From assembly GCA_944389195.1 (NCBI GenBank), contig CALXLM010000005.1:1-48945 (forward strand): a stretch of 48,945 bases of DNA. Direction: 5' to 3'. Positions 13,240 through 33,666 of the stretch are shown here, piece by piece. Source of the stretch: an uncultured Opitutales bacterium. Its GTDB lineage: Bacteria > Verrucomicrobiota > Verrucomicrobiia > Opitutales > Intestinicryptomonadaceae. The notes beneath the pieces are model-generated. The model did no database searches, was not told the origin of the DNA, and saw only the letters and a program-made list of their open reading frames with translations. Every line of letters begins with the position of its first letter. The stretch's first letter is position 1. The position numbers and the translations under genes were made by a program.

Positions 13240-15957
13240 ATGAAAGTGTCCGGCGTTTTTTTGGCGTGTTTTTCTGTTTTGTTTGCAGTTTCCGATATTT
13301 TTGGGGCTTCATACAAAGTCGAGTCGTTTAACGGCGTGCCGTTTGTGACGGTTGACGGGAAACCGGTCCGGTCTCGCCATTTTCTCGGTTGGATGGGCGG
13401 CGGCAAAAGCCCCGACATAGGGTCGGATTGGAGAGATTACCATCTCGACTTTTCGCATGCCGAGGATTCCGTCTGCGGAGGGATAAAAATCCTTGTGGGC
13501 AACGACGTTTCGGATTTGTACATATCGCGCCTCGAACTTGAGAATCTCGACGACGGTTCAAGGATTCCGCTTTACGATTTTTCCGCCTCGCCGTACGACA
13601 AATCAAAACTGTCGTGGCTTTTCCCCAAAGAGATAGACCCGCAACCGGTAATTTCGATAAAAAACGAAAACATTGGCGGAGAAAGCATATTGCATATAAA
13701 TAAAATACAAAAAGACCTTACCTGCGACAGGCTCGTTTTCCATCTGCGCCATTTCGAGATAAAAAAAGGCGTTAAGTACCGTTTTCACATTCGGGCAAAA
13801 ACCGATTTGCCGAGCAGACTGTACCTTATTTCATATATTTTAAGTCCATACGAAGTCATCGCCGAAAACCGAAAGTCCTTTCTTCTTAAGCAGGAGAAGA
13901 TTGCCGCCGATGCGGGCGTTGATTTTATCCATTTCGGGGTGCCGACTTTGTGGAACTTGCGCGACTTTTCGTCGATGCGCGAAATAGACAATGCGTTCAA
14001 CGCCGTCATAGCCGTCAATCCCGATGCGAAAATTATTGTTAGGATAGGCACCGAAAGCGAAGCCCACCGCCGCGCGCATCCCGACGAGGTTATGGTAGAT
14101 TCCGACGGGAAACCCATTACGCGGGGATACGACGGGGCCAACTATTCGTCTCCGTCGTCTAAAAGTTTTAGGGCTGCCGTCGCCGAGGGCGTGCGCAATA
14201 CGATAGAGTACATAGAGTCCAAATTTCCCGACAACATTGCCGGATACCACCCGTGCGGTGGGCAGTCGGGAGAATTTTTTTACGGGGCTTCGGGGCAATG
14301 GGAACTTGCCGGCTACGACAAGGCCACTTTGACCGCATGGCGCAAATGGCTTGCAAACAAGTATAAAACGCCTGAAGCCCTCCAGAAGGCTTGGAACTCC
14401 CCGAAGCTGACGCCTTTCAAGGCTGTCGAAGTGCCGGATAGCCGTGCGAGGCGCGAGGCCACGACGCATCTTATGAATCCCAAAGTCAATGCGCCGGCCA
14501 TTGATTTTAATACTTTTCTTCAGGACGAAATGGCCGACCATGTTCTCGGGATAGCGAAAGTCGTGCGCGAAACCACCAAAAAGCTTGGCGTTGACAGGCT
14601 TTCGCTGGTGTTTTTCGGATACGCCTACGAGCTGTCCGGCTATCCCAACGGCCCGGCGGTTTCCGGGCATTACGCGCTAAAGCGAATACTCGATTCGCCG
14701 TATGTCGACATAGCGTCGGGACCGATTTCATATTCTTTAAGGGGTTTGGGCGGCATGAAACTCACGATGAGCGCGGCCGACAGCTTTGCGAACTCGGGAA
14801 AAATGTGGTTCGACGAGGACGACAACCGCACATATCTGATTTGGACGAGCGGAACTCCGCTGCTTGTAGCCGATCCGGCGCAGCGCACGGTTGAGGACAC
14901 AAGGAAGGTCATGCGCCGCAATCTCGCCCAGCAAACTATCCGCAACCACGGCTCATGGTGGATGGATTTGTTCGGCGGCGGATGGTTCAACGACCCTGAA
15001 ATTTGGATTGAAATGAAAAAGTTCCGCAAAAGCGAACTCGATATGATAAGGCGCCCGCAGCCGTATAGGCCTCCCGTGGCGCTGATTCATTCCGACAGGG
15101 CCGTCATGCACATAGGCGGAAACCGCGCATCGCAGGTGACGTCGGCCCCGCTTTTGCACAGCAGCAGGATAGCCATGAGCAAATCGGGCATACCGTTCGG
15201 GCAATACATTTTGGAGGACATCTTGGAGAGGAAGTTTTCGGCAAAATTAAACGTCTTTTTGCTGGCATCTGCGCTTACTGCGCAGGAGCGCAAAACGCTT
15301 GCCGAAGTATCCGGACAGTCTGCGGCAATATGGTGTTGGACTCCCGGACTTGTCGATTTGGAAAAAGGCGATTTTTCTTGCGAAGCCGTCAAGGAACTTA
15401 CCGGATTCGACGTTTCGTGCGCCGGCGACACGGAGGCAACCGTTTATTCGACCAAGGAGGGGAGGGAGGCCGGTTTGCCGGAAAAATTCGGGCCGGGCGC
15501 AAAGATAAAGCCGCTGCTGGCGGTGGAGGCGCGTGAAGGCGACGTGGTTTTGGCTAAATATTCCAACGGCAAAAACGCCGTCGTTTTGAGGCGTGCGGGC
15601 GAAAAGTCCAAGATGTTTGTCGGCACGACGATGATACCCACGGAACTTTACCGCCATATGGCGGCGGTTTCGGGTTTGCACATCTATACAAAACAGCCCG
15701 CCGCAGTTTACGCAAACGGAGGGTATGTATCGGTGACTGCAAATTCGTCGGAGCCGCACGAAATAGACCTGGGGTACAAAAACAACGTTTACGACGCAGT
15801 TTCGGGAAAGCGCGTCGGCAAGGGGCCGGTTTTAAAATTCGACATGGAAAAGGGCGACGTAAAATTCTTGCGGCTCGGCAAGGGAAACGAGAGCGCCGAT
15901 AAAGCAGGTCGGCAGGTTCGAAAAGGCGAAGAAAAATCCGAAGCTGCCTCTCAATGA
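13240..15957 (+). CDS. Secreted GH42-like (clan GH-A) glycoside hydrolase
   Basis: 905 residues with a signal peptide (about 1-22, ending IFGAS). An N-terminal beta domain (about 25-200) precedes a (beta/alpha)8 domain (about 210-560) resembling GH42 beta-galactosidase-type enzymes. Candidate catalytic glutamates are in GGQSGEFFYG (about residue 345) and in MWFDEDD (about residue 525); both assignments are inferred from spacing. After it come a trimerisation/GATase-like region (about 590-800) and a short beta domain, the GH42 order. The C-terminus ends in a charged tail that overlaps the convergent DUF2752 gene by 7 bases. It probably releases galactose- or related sugar residues from glycans. 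The family call is moderate. Confidence 0.7.
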   Translation: MKVSGVFLACFSVLFAVSDIFGASYKVESFNGVPFVTVDGKPVRSRHFLGWMGGGKSPDIGSDWRDYHLDFSHAEDSVCGGIKILVGNDVSDLYISRLELENLDDGSRIPLYDFSASPYDKSKLSWLFPKEIDPQPVISIKNENIGGESILHINKIQKDLTCDRLVFHLRHFEIKKGVKYRFHIRAKTDLPSRLYLISYILSPYEVIAENRKSFLLKQEKIAADAGVDFIHFGVPTLWNLRDFSSMREIDNAFNAVIAVNPDAKIIVRIGTESEAHRRAHPDEVMVDSDGKPITRGYDGANYSSPSSKSFRAAVAEGVRNTIEYIESKFPDNIAGYHPCGGQSGEFFYGASGQWELAGYDKATLTAWRKWLANKYKTPEALQKAWNSPKLTPFKAVEVPDSRARREATTHLMNPKVNAPAIDFNTFLQDEMADHVLGIAKVVRETTKKLGVDRLSLVFFGYAYELSGYPNGPAVSGHYALKRILDSPYVDIASGPISYSLRGLGGMKLTMSAADSFANSGKMWFDEDDNRTYLIWTSGTPLLVADPAQRTVEDTRKVMRRNLAQQTIRNHGSWWMDLFGGGWFNDPEIWIEMKKFRKSELDMIRRPQPYRPPVALIHSDRAVMHIGGNRASQVTSAPLLHSSRIAMSKSGIPFGQYILEDILERKFSAKLNVFLLASALTAQERKTLAEVSGQSAAIWCWTPGLVDLEKGDFSCEAVKELTGFDVSCAGDTEATVYSTKEGREAGLPEKFGPGAKIKPLLAVEAREGDVVLAKYSNGKNAVVLRRAGEKSKMFVGTTMIPTELYRHMAAVSGLHIYTKQPAAVYANGGYVSVTANSSEPHEIDLGYKNNVYDAVSGKRVGKGPVLKFDMEKGDVKFLRLGKGNESADKAGRQVRKGEEKSEAASQ

Positions 15958-16307
15958 GGCGCCAGAAAAGAAAATTTATCTATATTTCTAAGGACCGTAA
16001 AAAGAACAAATGCTAAAAGTATAAATAAGCTGATAAACGGTATTCTGAAAATCGACGGAAAAAGCATCATTATCGGAACGAGAGGCAGCAGTATCACGGC
16101 GAGAATATTTTGCGAGGCGGCCTCCGCAATGTTTCCGTGCACGAGTGCATGCAGGGCCCTCAGCGTACCGCAGCCCGGGCAGTAAAGGTTTGTAAGGGCG
16201 TTTGTAGGGCACGGCGGGAAGAAAGCTTCCGTTGAAGGATCGAAAAGGTAGAGAACTATGAGCAGCGCGGAAAGTCCGGCAAGTATGAGCGCGTTTGAAA
16301 ATTTCAT
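15951..16307 (-). CDS. DUF2752 membrane protein
   Basis: 118 residues from the ATG at 16307; a TTG at 16319 would overlap the preceding stop and add four residues. Three hydrophobic segments (about 6-24, 68-86 and 90-108) and the family signature YCPGCGTLRALHALVHGN (about residues 43-60) identify DUF2752. The CxGC pair followed by a conserved His suggests a metal or redox site, but no function is established. It is the last gene of an operon with three CD225-like genes, a pairing I recognise from other bacterial genomes. Its 3' end overlaps the convergent GH42-like gene. Confidence 0.85.
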   Translation of the reverse strand: MKFSNALILAGLSALLIVLYLFDPSTEAFFPPCPTNALTNLYCPGCGTLRALHALVHGNIAEAASQNILAVILLPLVPIMMLFPSIFRIPFISLFILLAFVLFTVLRNIDKFSFLAPH

Positions 16308-16315
16308 GTTTCTTG

Positions 16316-16612
16316 TCAAATTTTCAGCGCGAGGCCGTCGATAAGCTGCGGAAGCATTTTTAACGTTATGCGTATGGCCCAGAAAATTAGGGCTACGTTT
16401 ATTATTGTCGCGGGTATCATTCCCCAGCGCGCCCAGGCCTTTGCCTTATCCGATTCCGCTTTTGCCGTCGCATCGTCGCCGGCAAGATGGGCCTTCAGCG
16501 CGTTCGATGAATGCTTAAGCCCGAACAGCGCAAAATAGTTCCCGAAAACGAAGAAGAAAAACATGCATTCCCCGTTTCCGTCGTCGAAACCGCCTTTGCT
16601 TTTCCCAGCCAT
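16316..16612 (-). CDS. CD225/dispanin-like small membrane protein (third copy, divergent)
   Basis: 98 residues from the ATG at 16612, which shares one base with the stop of the preceding gene (TGATG). It has the two-segment dispanin plan: a hydrophobic stretch FFFFVFGNYFALFGL (about 17-31), the loop pattern LAGDDATAKAESDKAKAWA, and a second membrane helix (about 66-86). The glycine-cysteine motif of the first helix seen in its two neighbours is lost, so it is a divergent member. A longer open frame upstream overlaps the neighbour out of frame and is rejected. Function unknown; bacterial CD225 proteins are related to IFITM-type membrane proteins. Confidence 0.65.
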   Translation of the reverse strand: MAGKSKGGFDDGNGECMFFFFVFGNYFALFGLKHSSNALKAHLAGDDATAKAESDKAKAWARWGMIPATIINVALIFWAIRITLKMLPQLIDGLALKI

Positions 16613-16854
16613 CAAAGCGCAACTGTAATCCATGCGGCGAGGTATGAGAATATCCCGATGATAACGGCGGCCGCCCCCCAGAATTTCGCCTTTTCCGCCG
16701 CCATCATGGCCTTTGCCGGATTGTCGAGCGCTATGTAAGTATTCGCCTTGCCTGCGAACACCACGGCTATCACGCCTATAGGAGGCCAGCAAAACAGGGT
16801 CGCCAATATTCCTATTATTAGGTAGTTTTGAATCTTTTTTTTGAGGTCTTCCAT
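16612..16854 (-). CDS. CD225/dispanin family protein (second copy)
   Basis: 80 residues from the ATG at 16854. Helix 1 (about 11-36) reads IIGILATLFCWPPIGVIAVV, followed by the family loop LDNPAKAMMAAEKAKFW and helix 2 (about 58-78). This is the complete CD225 domain: a re-entrant or membrane helix with Cys-aromatic-Pro-Pro, a basic/alanine-rich amphipathic loop, then a second helix. It begins 5 bases after the first copy ends and overlaps the third copy by one base, so the three are co-translated. Confidence 0.85.
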   Translation of the reverse strand: MEDLKKKIQNYLIIGILATLFCWPPIGVIAVVFAGKANTYIALDNPAKAMMAAEKAKFWGAAAVIIGIFSYLAAWITVAL

Positions 16855-16859
16855 TGCGT

Positions 16860-17144
16860 TTAAGGTGCTAAAAATATTCCGAACACAAGTACAATCGCCA
16901 TTATGAGGTATATCGCAAGGCTTGAAAAAAAGGAAATAAAAATCCAACCCTTTGCCGATTTTGACGCCTCAAGCGCGGCCGGCAGGTTCCCCCTGGCGAG
17001 CGACGCGTCAACCTTTGTGGCGTAGTATATTGACAGCAGCCCGAATGGCAGGCAACAAAAAAGCGTCGCGAGAATTCCCAAAAGGAAATGGTCGGGTATT
17101 TTATTTGTCTCTTCGCGGCAGGGCTCGTTGTGAAAAATGTCCAT
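16860..17144 (-). CDS. CD225/dispanin family protein (first copy)
   Basis: 94 residues, the first gene of the operon. After a polar N-terminus of 18 residues, helix 1 is FLLGILATLFCCLPFGLLSI (about 20-39), the loop is LARGNLPAALEASKSAKGW and helix 2 spans about 67-92. The motif ATLFCCLPFG is the classical CD225 signature, where the cysteines are palmitoylated in eukaryotic IFITM proteins; whether bacteria modify them is unknown. It diverges from the trp operon across a 180-base gap. Confidence 0.85.
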   Translation of the reverse strand: MDIFHNEPCREETNKIPDHFLLGILATLFCCLPFGLLSIYYATKVDASLARGNLPAALEASKSAKGWIFISFFSSLAIYLIMAIVLVFGIFLAP

Positions 17145-17372: not shown

Positions 17373-17414
17373 ATGAACAATTGGTGGTTCAGTAAAGGGT
17401 CGCATAGGGTTTAA
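17373..17414 (+). CDS. trpL: trp leader peptide with tandem Trp codons
   Basis: A 13-codon open frame reads MNNWWFSKGSHRV and stops at 17412-17414. Two adjacent TGG codons (17382-17387) in so short a frame, between a trp promoter and a terminator just before trpE, are the hallmark of transcription attenuation by ribosome stalling. It is too short for routine gene callers. The distance from the Trp codons to the antiterminator strand (17398) suits a stalled ribosome that leaves that strand free. Confidence 0.9.
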   Translation: MNNWWFSKGSHRV

Positions 17415-17441
17415 AAAACGGTTTTTAAACTTTGGGCGGCC
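17398..17441 (+). promoter_or_regulatory. trp attenuator: antiterminator structure
   Basis: ggtcgc (17398-17403) can pair with gcggcc (17436-17441), five Watson-Crick pairs and one G-U. The same gcggcc is the left arm of the terminator, so the two folds exclude each other. A 9-bp A/T hairpin (17409-17417 with 17422-17430) sits between the arms and would stack inside the antiterminator. A ribosome that reaches the leader stop covers 17398-17403 and lets the terminator form. Confidence 0.75.
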
Positions 17442-17464
17442 TTTTGTCTGGGCCGCTTTTTTTT
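17434..17464 (+). terminator. trp attenuator terminator
   Basis: The 6-bp GC stem gcggcc/ggccgc (17436-17441 with 17451-17456) has a 9-base loop and is followed by eight T residues (17457-17464). It ends 12 bases before the trpE start, so only read-through RNA can express the operon. Confidence 0.9.
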
Positions 17465-32775: not shown

Positions 32776-33666
32776 ATGGCCGAGAAATATTACAAAGTTT
32801 TGGGCGGAAAAGCGAAGTCTTTATGCAAGCTGTTCGACTACACTCCGTACCTTCCTGCTGACGGCTCGCCGGGCGCGTGGCTCCCGCGTATCGACGGCGC
32901 CAAAATGCGTTCCGAGGGGTATTACGTATCCAAGCATTGGAATATGTGGTATTCGGAAGGCGCGCGCATATACGAGGCGGAATGCGAGGACGCCGACCCG
33001 GCCGGACGGTGCGGGGTGGAGGATCAAATTTGTTGCGGGCGCATAAGATTGCTTAAAGATGTCACAGAGGAGCTATTGCCGCTTTTGAAGGACGGGCGCT
33101 TCAATCTCGGCGAATCGAATACCGGCGAGCGCAATCTCGGCAGCTTCAATACGGGGGACCGCAACGACGGCAGCCGCAATACGGGCAGGCTGAACTGCGG
33201 CGATTTTAATACGGGCGACGCCAATACGGGCATTGACAACGTTGGCGACGGCAATAGGGGGAGCGGCAATGTCGGAAGCCGCAACATAGGGCATTCCAAC
33301 ACGGGCGACGGCAATGTCGGAAGCTATAATTCGGGGCATTTCAATAGCGGAAATTCAAACTCCGGCAGCTTCAACACGGGAAACCGCAATTCCGGCAAAT
33401 GGAACGTGGGAAACTACAATTCCGGATATTTCAACACTTCGGACGCTCCGTTCATGATGTTCAACAAACCGGTGGAAAATATTTCCCCCCGAGAAATAGT
33501 CCTTCCCAAATGGCTTAACAGACCCGACGCGAAATCGTCTTTCGAGTCGGCAAGCGAAGATGATTTGAGAAAGACACTTGAATTGCCCAATTTCGACTAT
33601 GCGGTTTTCGAGGAGATTACCGGAATTTCAAAATCCGACTTTGCAAGGAGGCTTGGCAGCCTGTGA
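32776..33666 (+). CDS. Asn-Gly pentapeptide-repeat protein (23 repeats), phage-type family
   Basis: 296 residues. A globular N-terminus (about 1-105, with YYVSKHWNMWY and a pair of cysteines) precedes 23 uninterrupted xxNxG pentapeptides (about residues 108-222, starting RFNLG and ending YFNTS). Asn occupies the central position in every unit, unlike the Leu/Phe-centred A(D/N)Lxx repeats of Qnr-type proteins; a stacked Asn ladder in a beta-helix is expected. The tail has MFNKP and LPNFDYAVFEEITGI, which I recognise from a family frequent in phages and prophages that joins an N-terminal domain to such repeats. No other phage gene is nearby. Function unknown. No signal peptide, so probably cytoplasmic. 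Confidence 0.8.
   Translation: MAEKYYKVLGGKAKSLCKLFDYTPYLPADGSPGAWLPRIDGAKMRSEGYYVSKHWNMWYSEGARIYEAECEDADPAGRCGVEDQICCGRIRLLKDVTEELLPLLKDGRFNLGESNTGERNLGSFNTGDRNDGSRNTGRLNCGDFNTGDANTGIDNVGDGNRGSGNVGSRNIGHSNTGDGNVGSYNSGHFNSGNSNSGSFNTGNRNSGKWNVGNYNSGYFNTSDAPFMMFNKPVENISPREIVLPKWLNRPDAKSSFESASEDDLRKTLELPNFDYAVFEEITGISKSDFARRLGSL

Follow-up and report, generated by a model that had tools for sequence, protein, structure and literature searches.

The CD225/dispanin family (PF04505) comprises, among others, the IFITM proteins and PRRT1/SynDIG4. The latter consists of a re-entrant helix and one transmembrane (TM) helix, and is bound to CNIH and to the M4 helix of GluA1 (PMC13262616). Bacterial members of the family were listed, without their gene context, in the dispanin paper, and transfer from bacteria to animals is thought to account for the animal proteins (PMC3282796). 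We found no paper in the open-access literature on DUF2752 (PF10825) or DUF4190, nor on the pairing of CD225 with DUF2752, although earlier notice elsewhere is possible. To our knowledge, no function has been settled for the bacterial CD225/dispanin proteins.

Four membrane-protein genes in tandem

In the window analyzed here, a stretch of 48,945 nucleotides from an uncultured Opitutales bacterium, four small membrane-protein genes lie head to tail on the minus strand between positions 17144 and 15951 (Table 1). All four reading frames are intact in the source genome. The gap between cdA and cdB is 5 bases, and cdB overlaps the third gene by 1 base, exactly the spacing that a first-pass annotation had claimed; the junction between the third gene and the DUF2752 gene is a 4-base overlap if the latter starts at TTG, or an 8-base gap if it starts at ATG. 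The 3' end of the DUF2752 gene falls within the last bases of a convergent gene, which ends at 15957. Chance can be excluded as the origin of this arrangement, because the gene order is kept both in related genomes and across the phylum. The family identities and the operon layout assigned in the same annotation are also borne out: cdA and cdB are the only genes of the genome above the Pfam cut-off for CD225 (27.1 bits), their matches span positions 3-67 of the 68 in PF04505 and include both hydrophobic segments, and the last gene encodes a DUF2752 protein in which the CPGCG motif is present. No RNA family was recognized by Rfam in the operon region, and scans of the region for promoters and terminators gave results near chance level.

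Table 1. Features of the window discussed in the text, with their coordinates.
Feature	Coordinates	Strand	Length	Properties
cdA, CD225/dispanin protein 1	16860..17144	-	94 aa	FCCLPFG segment; Pfam CD225 63.6 bits, E 1.9e-17, residues 17-81; orthologues within genus
cdB, CD225/dispanin protein 2	16612..16854	-	80 aa	ALDNPAKAMMA segment, FCWPP; Pfam CD225 53.9 bits, E 2e-14; same subtype in G004, G008
Third gene, divergent CD225 relative	16316..16612	-	98 aa	GNYFAL / WGLIPSTIIN-type conserved segments
DUF2752 gene	15951..16319 (TTG start) or 16307 (ATG start)	-	122 or 118 aa	Pfam DUF2752 63.9 bits, E 1.5e-17
trp attenuator-like leader (assigned from sequence features)	17373..17458	+		leader frame MNNWWFSKGSHRV, two adjacent Trp codons, then G+C hairpin and T-run
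NxGxxNxG-repeat protein	32776..33666	+		Pentapeptide_2 (PF01469), 108 bits

The DUF2752 protein has three predicted TM helices and Cys residues at positions 37, 47 and 50 of the 122-residue form. In the numbering of the 118-residue form, C33, C43, C46, G47, N67 and R107 are invariant across 25 diverse DUF2752 proteins. The N-terminus and loop 2 are rich in K+R, and the long Cys loop has few of them per residue; by these counts the N-terminus and loop 2 are probably inside the cell, and the Cys loop probably faces the periplasm. The AlphaFold2 model of the protein has a pLDDT of 94.9; no relative was found in the PDB by sequence or with Foldseek, and Foldseek/VIA-align comparisons of the model returned no relatives either.

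The third protein had been described as a specialized copy that has lost the Cys-containing motif of the first helix, and a profile search against CD225 had been proposed as a check on its membership. In the direct search it reaches only 16.6 bits (E 0.009, positions 20-64 of PF04505), below the Pfam cut-off, and the corresponding proteins of its relatives score 18 to 24 bits. When its own profile is aligned to that of CD225, hhalign returns 97.5% (E 8.3e-12), while the same kind of comparison gives 1.3% for DUF2752 and 0.6% for DUF4190; used as a phylum-wide query, this profile also picks up weak matches that fall almost entirely on CD225 loci. By these profile comparisons the third protein is a true CD225 homologue, although it lies under the Pfam cut-off. 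The CC-x-P-x-G segment has been replaced in it by a GNYFAL-type segment; since seven other genomes have retained the NYFAL-type segment, the third gene represents a distinct subfamily rather than a decayed copy, in agreement with the proposed specialization. The loss of the Cys motif stands as a replacement of the segment, with two qualifications: 5 of 8 relatives have a Cys at a different place, and in cdB too the CC pair is reduced to a single Cys (FCWPP). Apart from Opitutales, a single Verrucomicrobiota genome was found to carry this third type.

The AlphaFold2 model of the third protein (pLDDT 81) has helices at residues 13-23, 28-43, 47-63 and 65-95: the first pair of helices is broken, and a middle helix is followed by a long final one. 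In outline this agrees with the re-entrant helix and TM helix of SynDIG4 (PMC13262616). Foldseek and VIA-align searches with this model found no convincing relative, and the SynDIG4 entries were absent from the matches; the best of these, DUF4398 (Z 8.9), was rejected as a generic helical match.

Linkage of CD225 and DUF2752 genes across the phylum

We surveyed 288 genomes of the phylum, reading the genus and family counts from tables. CD225 is present in 51 of these genomes and DUF2752 in 146. Of the 59 clusters of CD225 genes, 40 have a DUF2752 gene no more than 0.9 kb away, always on the same strand (40/40) and in all cases but one downstream of the cluster (39/40); these 40 span 22 genera and 13 families, while the remaining 19 clusters are unlinked. 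With a target of ~2 kb and genomes of ~3.5 Mb, we estimate that well under one linked cluster would be expected by chance. The pair is thus conserved in related genomes, which is what the first-pass annotation had singled out for checking. The same site upstream of DUF2752 is also taken by GYF_2-DUF4190, zinc-ribbon-DUF4190 and zinc-ribbon-TM2 proteins. Among 150 DUF2752 loci listed, at least 29 have DUF4190 within 2.5 kb (28 on the same strand) and at least 15 have TM2; approximately 72 of the 150 have CD225, DUF4190 or TM2 nearby. Judged by this gene context, DUF2752 is a hub of small membrane-protein partners. The CD225 and DUF4190 profiles match each other at 90% in profile-profile comparison, so that the two families may be distant relatives; TM2, which shows no profile similarity to CD225, is not supported as its homologue.

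The linkage could in principle reflect only the shared regulation of separate envelope-stress proteins, with CD225, TM2, DUF4190 and DUF2752 acting in parallel on the membrane and forming no complex. The partners are indeed interchangeable, DUF2752 and CD225 genes are in some cases found separately, and homologues of stlA, a salt-tolerance gene from a gut fosmid of Akkermansia-like type (PMC3861447), repeatedly have a TM2 gene next to them, a hint of stress islands. Against this explanation, the near-invariant order and the tight spacing of the genes exceed what co-regulation needs, and neither a stress promoter nor a regulator was found at the operon. We consider it rather unlikely.

Inheritance of the operon within the genus

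In the source genome the operon is divergent from trpEGDCFBA, in a neighbourhood of rpsA, trp and carbohydrate genes. It adjoins trpE also in genus genomes G001 and G013, and is near rpsA in G004. In G008 only cdB is left, between rpsA and trpE. In G012 the third gene and DUF2752 alone are found, ~3 kb from trpE on the same contig, with CD225 on a separate one: the third type and DUF2752 stay neighbours even when CD225 is elsewhere. Seven of the 14 genus genomes are without both CD225 and DUF2752; in four of them (G002, G003, G007, G011), in which up to 1.5 kb upstream of trpE was read, there is no remnant of the operon there and the trp genes are kept. As read from these neighbourhoods, the history of the operon is one of vertical inheritance with repeated loss, at a fixed site beside trpE.

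Such losses, like the reduction to cdB in G008, might be those of a relic, a decaying operon with no current role in the genus. This possibility appears remote, as the four frames of the source operon are intact, the invariant residues of DUF2752 are kept, and fresh CD225 duplicates are present in G001. In this genome (L045, 3325-3873, reversed strand) two near-identical tandem CD225 copies have their first ~60 residues in common; judged by this likeness, they are the product of a recent duplication or of gene conversion. As to domain content, the CD225 proteins of the sister genus and of G006 carry an N-terminal zinc ribbon (L051, L052, L047), as do the third-type proteins of the sister genus, while those of the source operon do not.

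The proximity to trpE raises the question of whether the operon is a membrane module linked to tryptophan, serving transport or the control of the pathway. Besides the adjacency in G000, G001, G008 (cdB only) and G013, this idea finds some support in Nonomuraea, with its order DUF4190-CD225-DUF2752-trpC-trpB. On the other hand, the sister genus and the 40 other phylum loci that were read all lack a trp gene within ~2.5 kb, and the four genus genomes named above have trp genes with no operon; we therefore regard a tryptophan link as the least probable of the explanations considered. The Nonomuraea gerenzanensis genes (L115, 1916-5944) lie inside a trp operon, with DUF4190-like, CD225 and DUF2752 genes directly before trpC and trpB. 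Upstream of trpE in the window there is, by its sequence features, a trp attenuator-like leader (Table 1), which has no match in Rfam; a [MV]xxWW leader frame with hairpin and T-run occurs in 10 of the 10 genus genomes that have trpE. Elsewhere in the window lies a repeat protein of the Pentapeptide_2 type (Table 1), a repeat best known from mycobacterial PPE-MPTR proteins.

The fixed site also bears on the antiviral role at which the first-pass annotation had hinted. IFITMs act on viral membrane fusion, and few phages use fusion. By analogy with IFITM, to which they are linked by family, the CD225 proteins could stiffen or reshape the membrane and thereby block phage entry, with DUF2752 as a helper. 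CD225 proteins of mycobacteria, when introduced into human cells, restrict influenza virus (PMC4488726): this result shows that the CD225 fold is able to restrict a virus, and does not show that bacteria employ it in this way. The observations made here go against such a role. PADLOC gave no trustworthy match, the sole one being a weak DrmD match to cdB (E 0.011). The neighbours are housekeeping genes, and the operon occupies an orthologous site with lineage-specific losses instead of mobile islands, so that a defence island was rejected by site and neighbours. No paper linking CD225 to phage defence was found in the open-access literature. Patterns built from alignments found no CD225/DUF2752 relatives among 2.9 million viral contigs of IMG/VR, where a relative had to match the pattern in order to be seen. 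Overall, an antiviral barrier is in our opinion improbable. A phage-borne origin was likewise rejected, on account of the IMG/VR result and because the matches in phage records are unannotated, unverified faecal contigs, of which the one with both CD225 and DUF2752, L116 (MT839860), looks bacterial despite its phage label: it encodes an ABC transporter, CD225, DUF2752, and frames reading as pyrF, pyrK and pyrD.

A candidate membrane complex and its likeness to known systems

The reading that we favour, at slightly less than even probability, is that the operon encodes one small heteromeric complex of the inner membrane, with DUF2752 as the core and the CD225 proteins as accessory subunits, whose contact we infer. 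The first-pass annotation had likewise suggested a hetero-oligomer, a plausible idea. The core would consist of three membrane helices and of a loop, probably facing the periplasm, that carries the three invariant Cys (C-x9-CPGCG) and an Arg, the invariant Asn and Arg lying within the later helices or next to them; the Cys site would be suited to metal binding or thiol chemistry, which is a guess. The CD225 proteins, which would combine a re-entrant pair of helices with a single TM helix, would pack around DUF2752, scaffolding or tuning it. In many relatives, cytoplasmic zinc ribbons or GYF domains on such subunits may tie the core to cytosolic partners; the operon described here is without them, and its three diverged paralogues might supply different subunits instead, the third protein being the one kept beside DUF2752. 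The role of the complex would be a dispensable one, in envelope upkeep or stress. Counting against the complex are the facts that linkage indicates shared use, not contact, that 19 CD225 clusters are unlinked, and that about half of the DUF2752 loci listed are without any of the three partner families; DUF2752 may act alone.

The strict pairing with DUF2752 throughout the phylum, found also in Actinomycetota, names a testable partner for CD225, and offers an entry point to several uncharacterized families together (DUF2752, DUF4190). If the complex is real, DUF2752 would be the missing partner of the bacterial CD225 proteins. A broader generalization, to which we assign a rather low probability, would be that a DUF2752 complex with a three-Cys metal or redox site is widespread, and that bacterial CD225 proteins, along with the ancestors of IFITM and SynDIG, serve as its accessory subunits, CD225, DUF4190 and TM2 hairpins being exchangeable adaptors.

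The pairs found outside the phylum, in Nonomuraea (Actinomycetota) and in a Bacillota-like faecal contig, are like the operon described here in having CD225 followed by DUF2752 on one strand; they differ in having a single CD225 and other flanking genes, and in the long Gly/Pro-rich N-terminus of the Nonomuraea CD225. A TM2-DUF2752-TM2 cluster of Streptomyces cadmiisoli (L119) is similar in that two-helix proteins flank DUF2752 on the same strand, but its TM2 has no profile similarity to CD225. With respect to DUF2752 (PF10825), the protein encoded here is a full match, with the CPGCG-x-x-RA motif and the LRN C-terminal segment; what sets it apart is that DUF2752 of this lineage is accompanied by as many as three or four genes of the CD225 type. 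With respect to the CD225/dispanin family, cdA and cdB match the full domain, with Cys-P-x-G in the first segment and KAK-x-W in the second, whereas the proteins of the operon have no N-terminal proline-rich or zinc-ribbon segment, occur as tandem paralogues joined with DUF2752, and include a third member under the cut-off. The CD225 profile matches PRRT1/SynDIG4 in the solved AMPA-receptor complexes with an E-value of 1.4e-16. The role of PRRT1/SynDIG4 as an accessory subunit of the AMPA receptor is the strongest outside support for a complex of the kind envisaged here, albeit with very different partners in animals.
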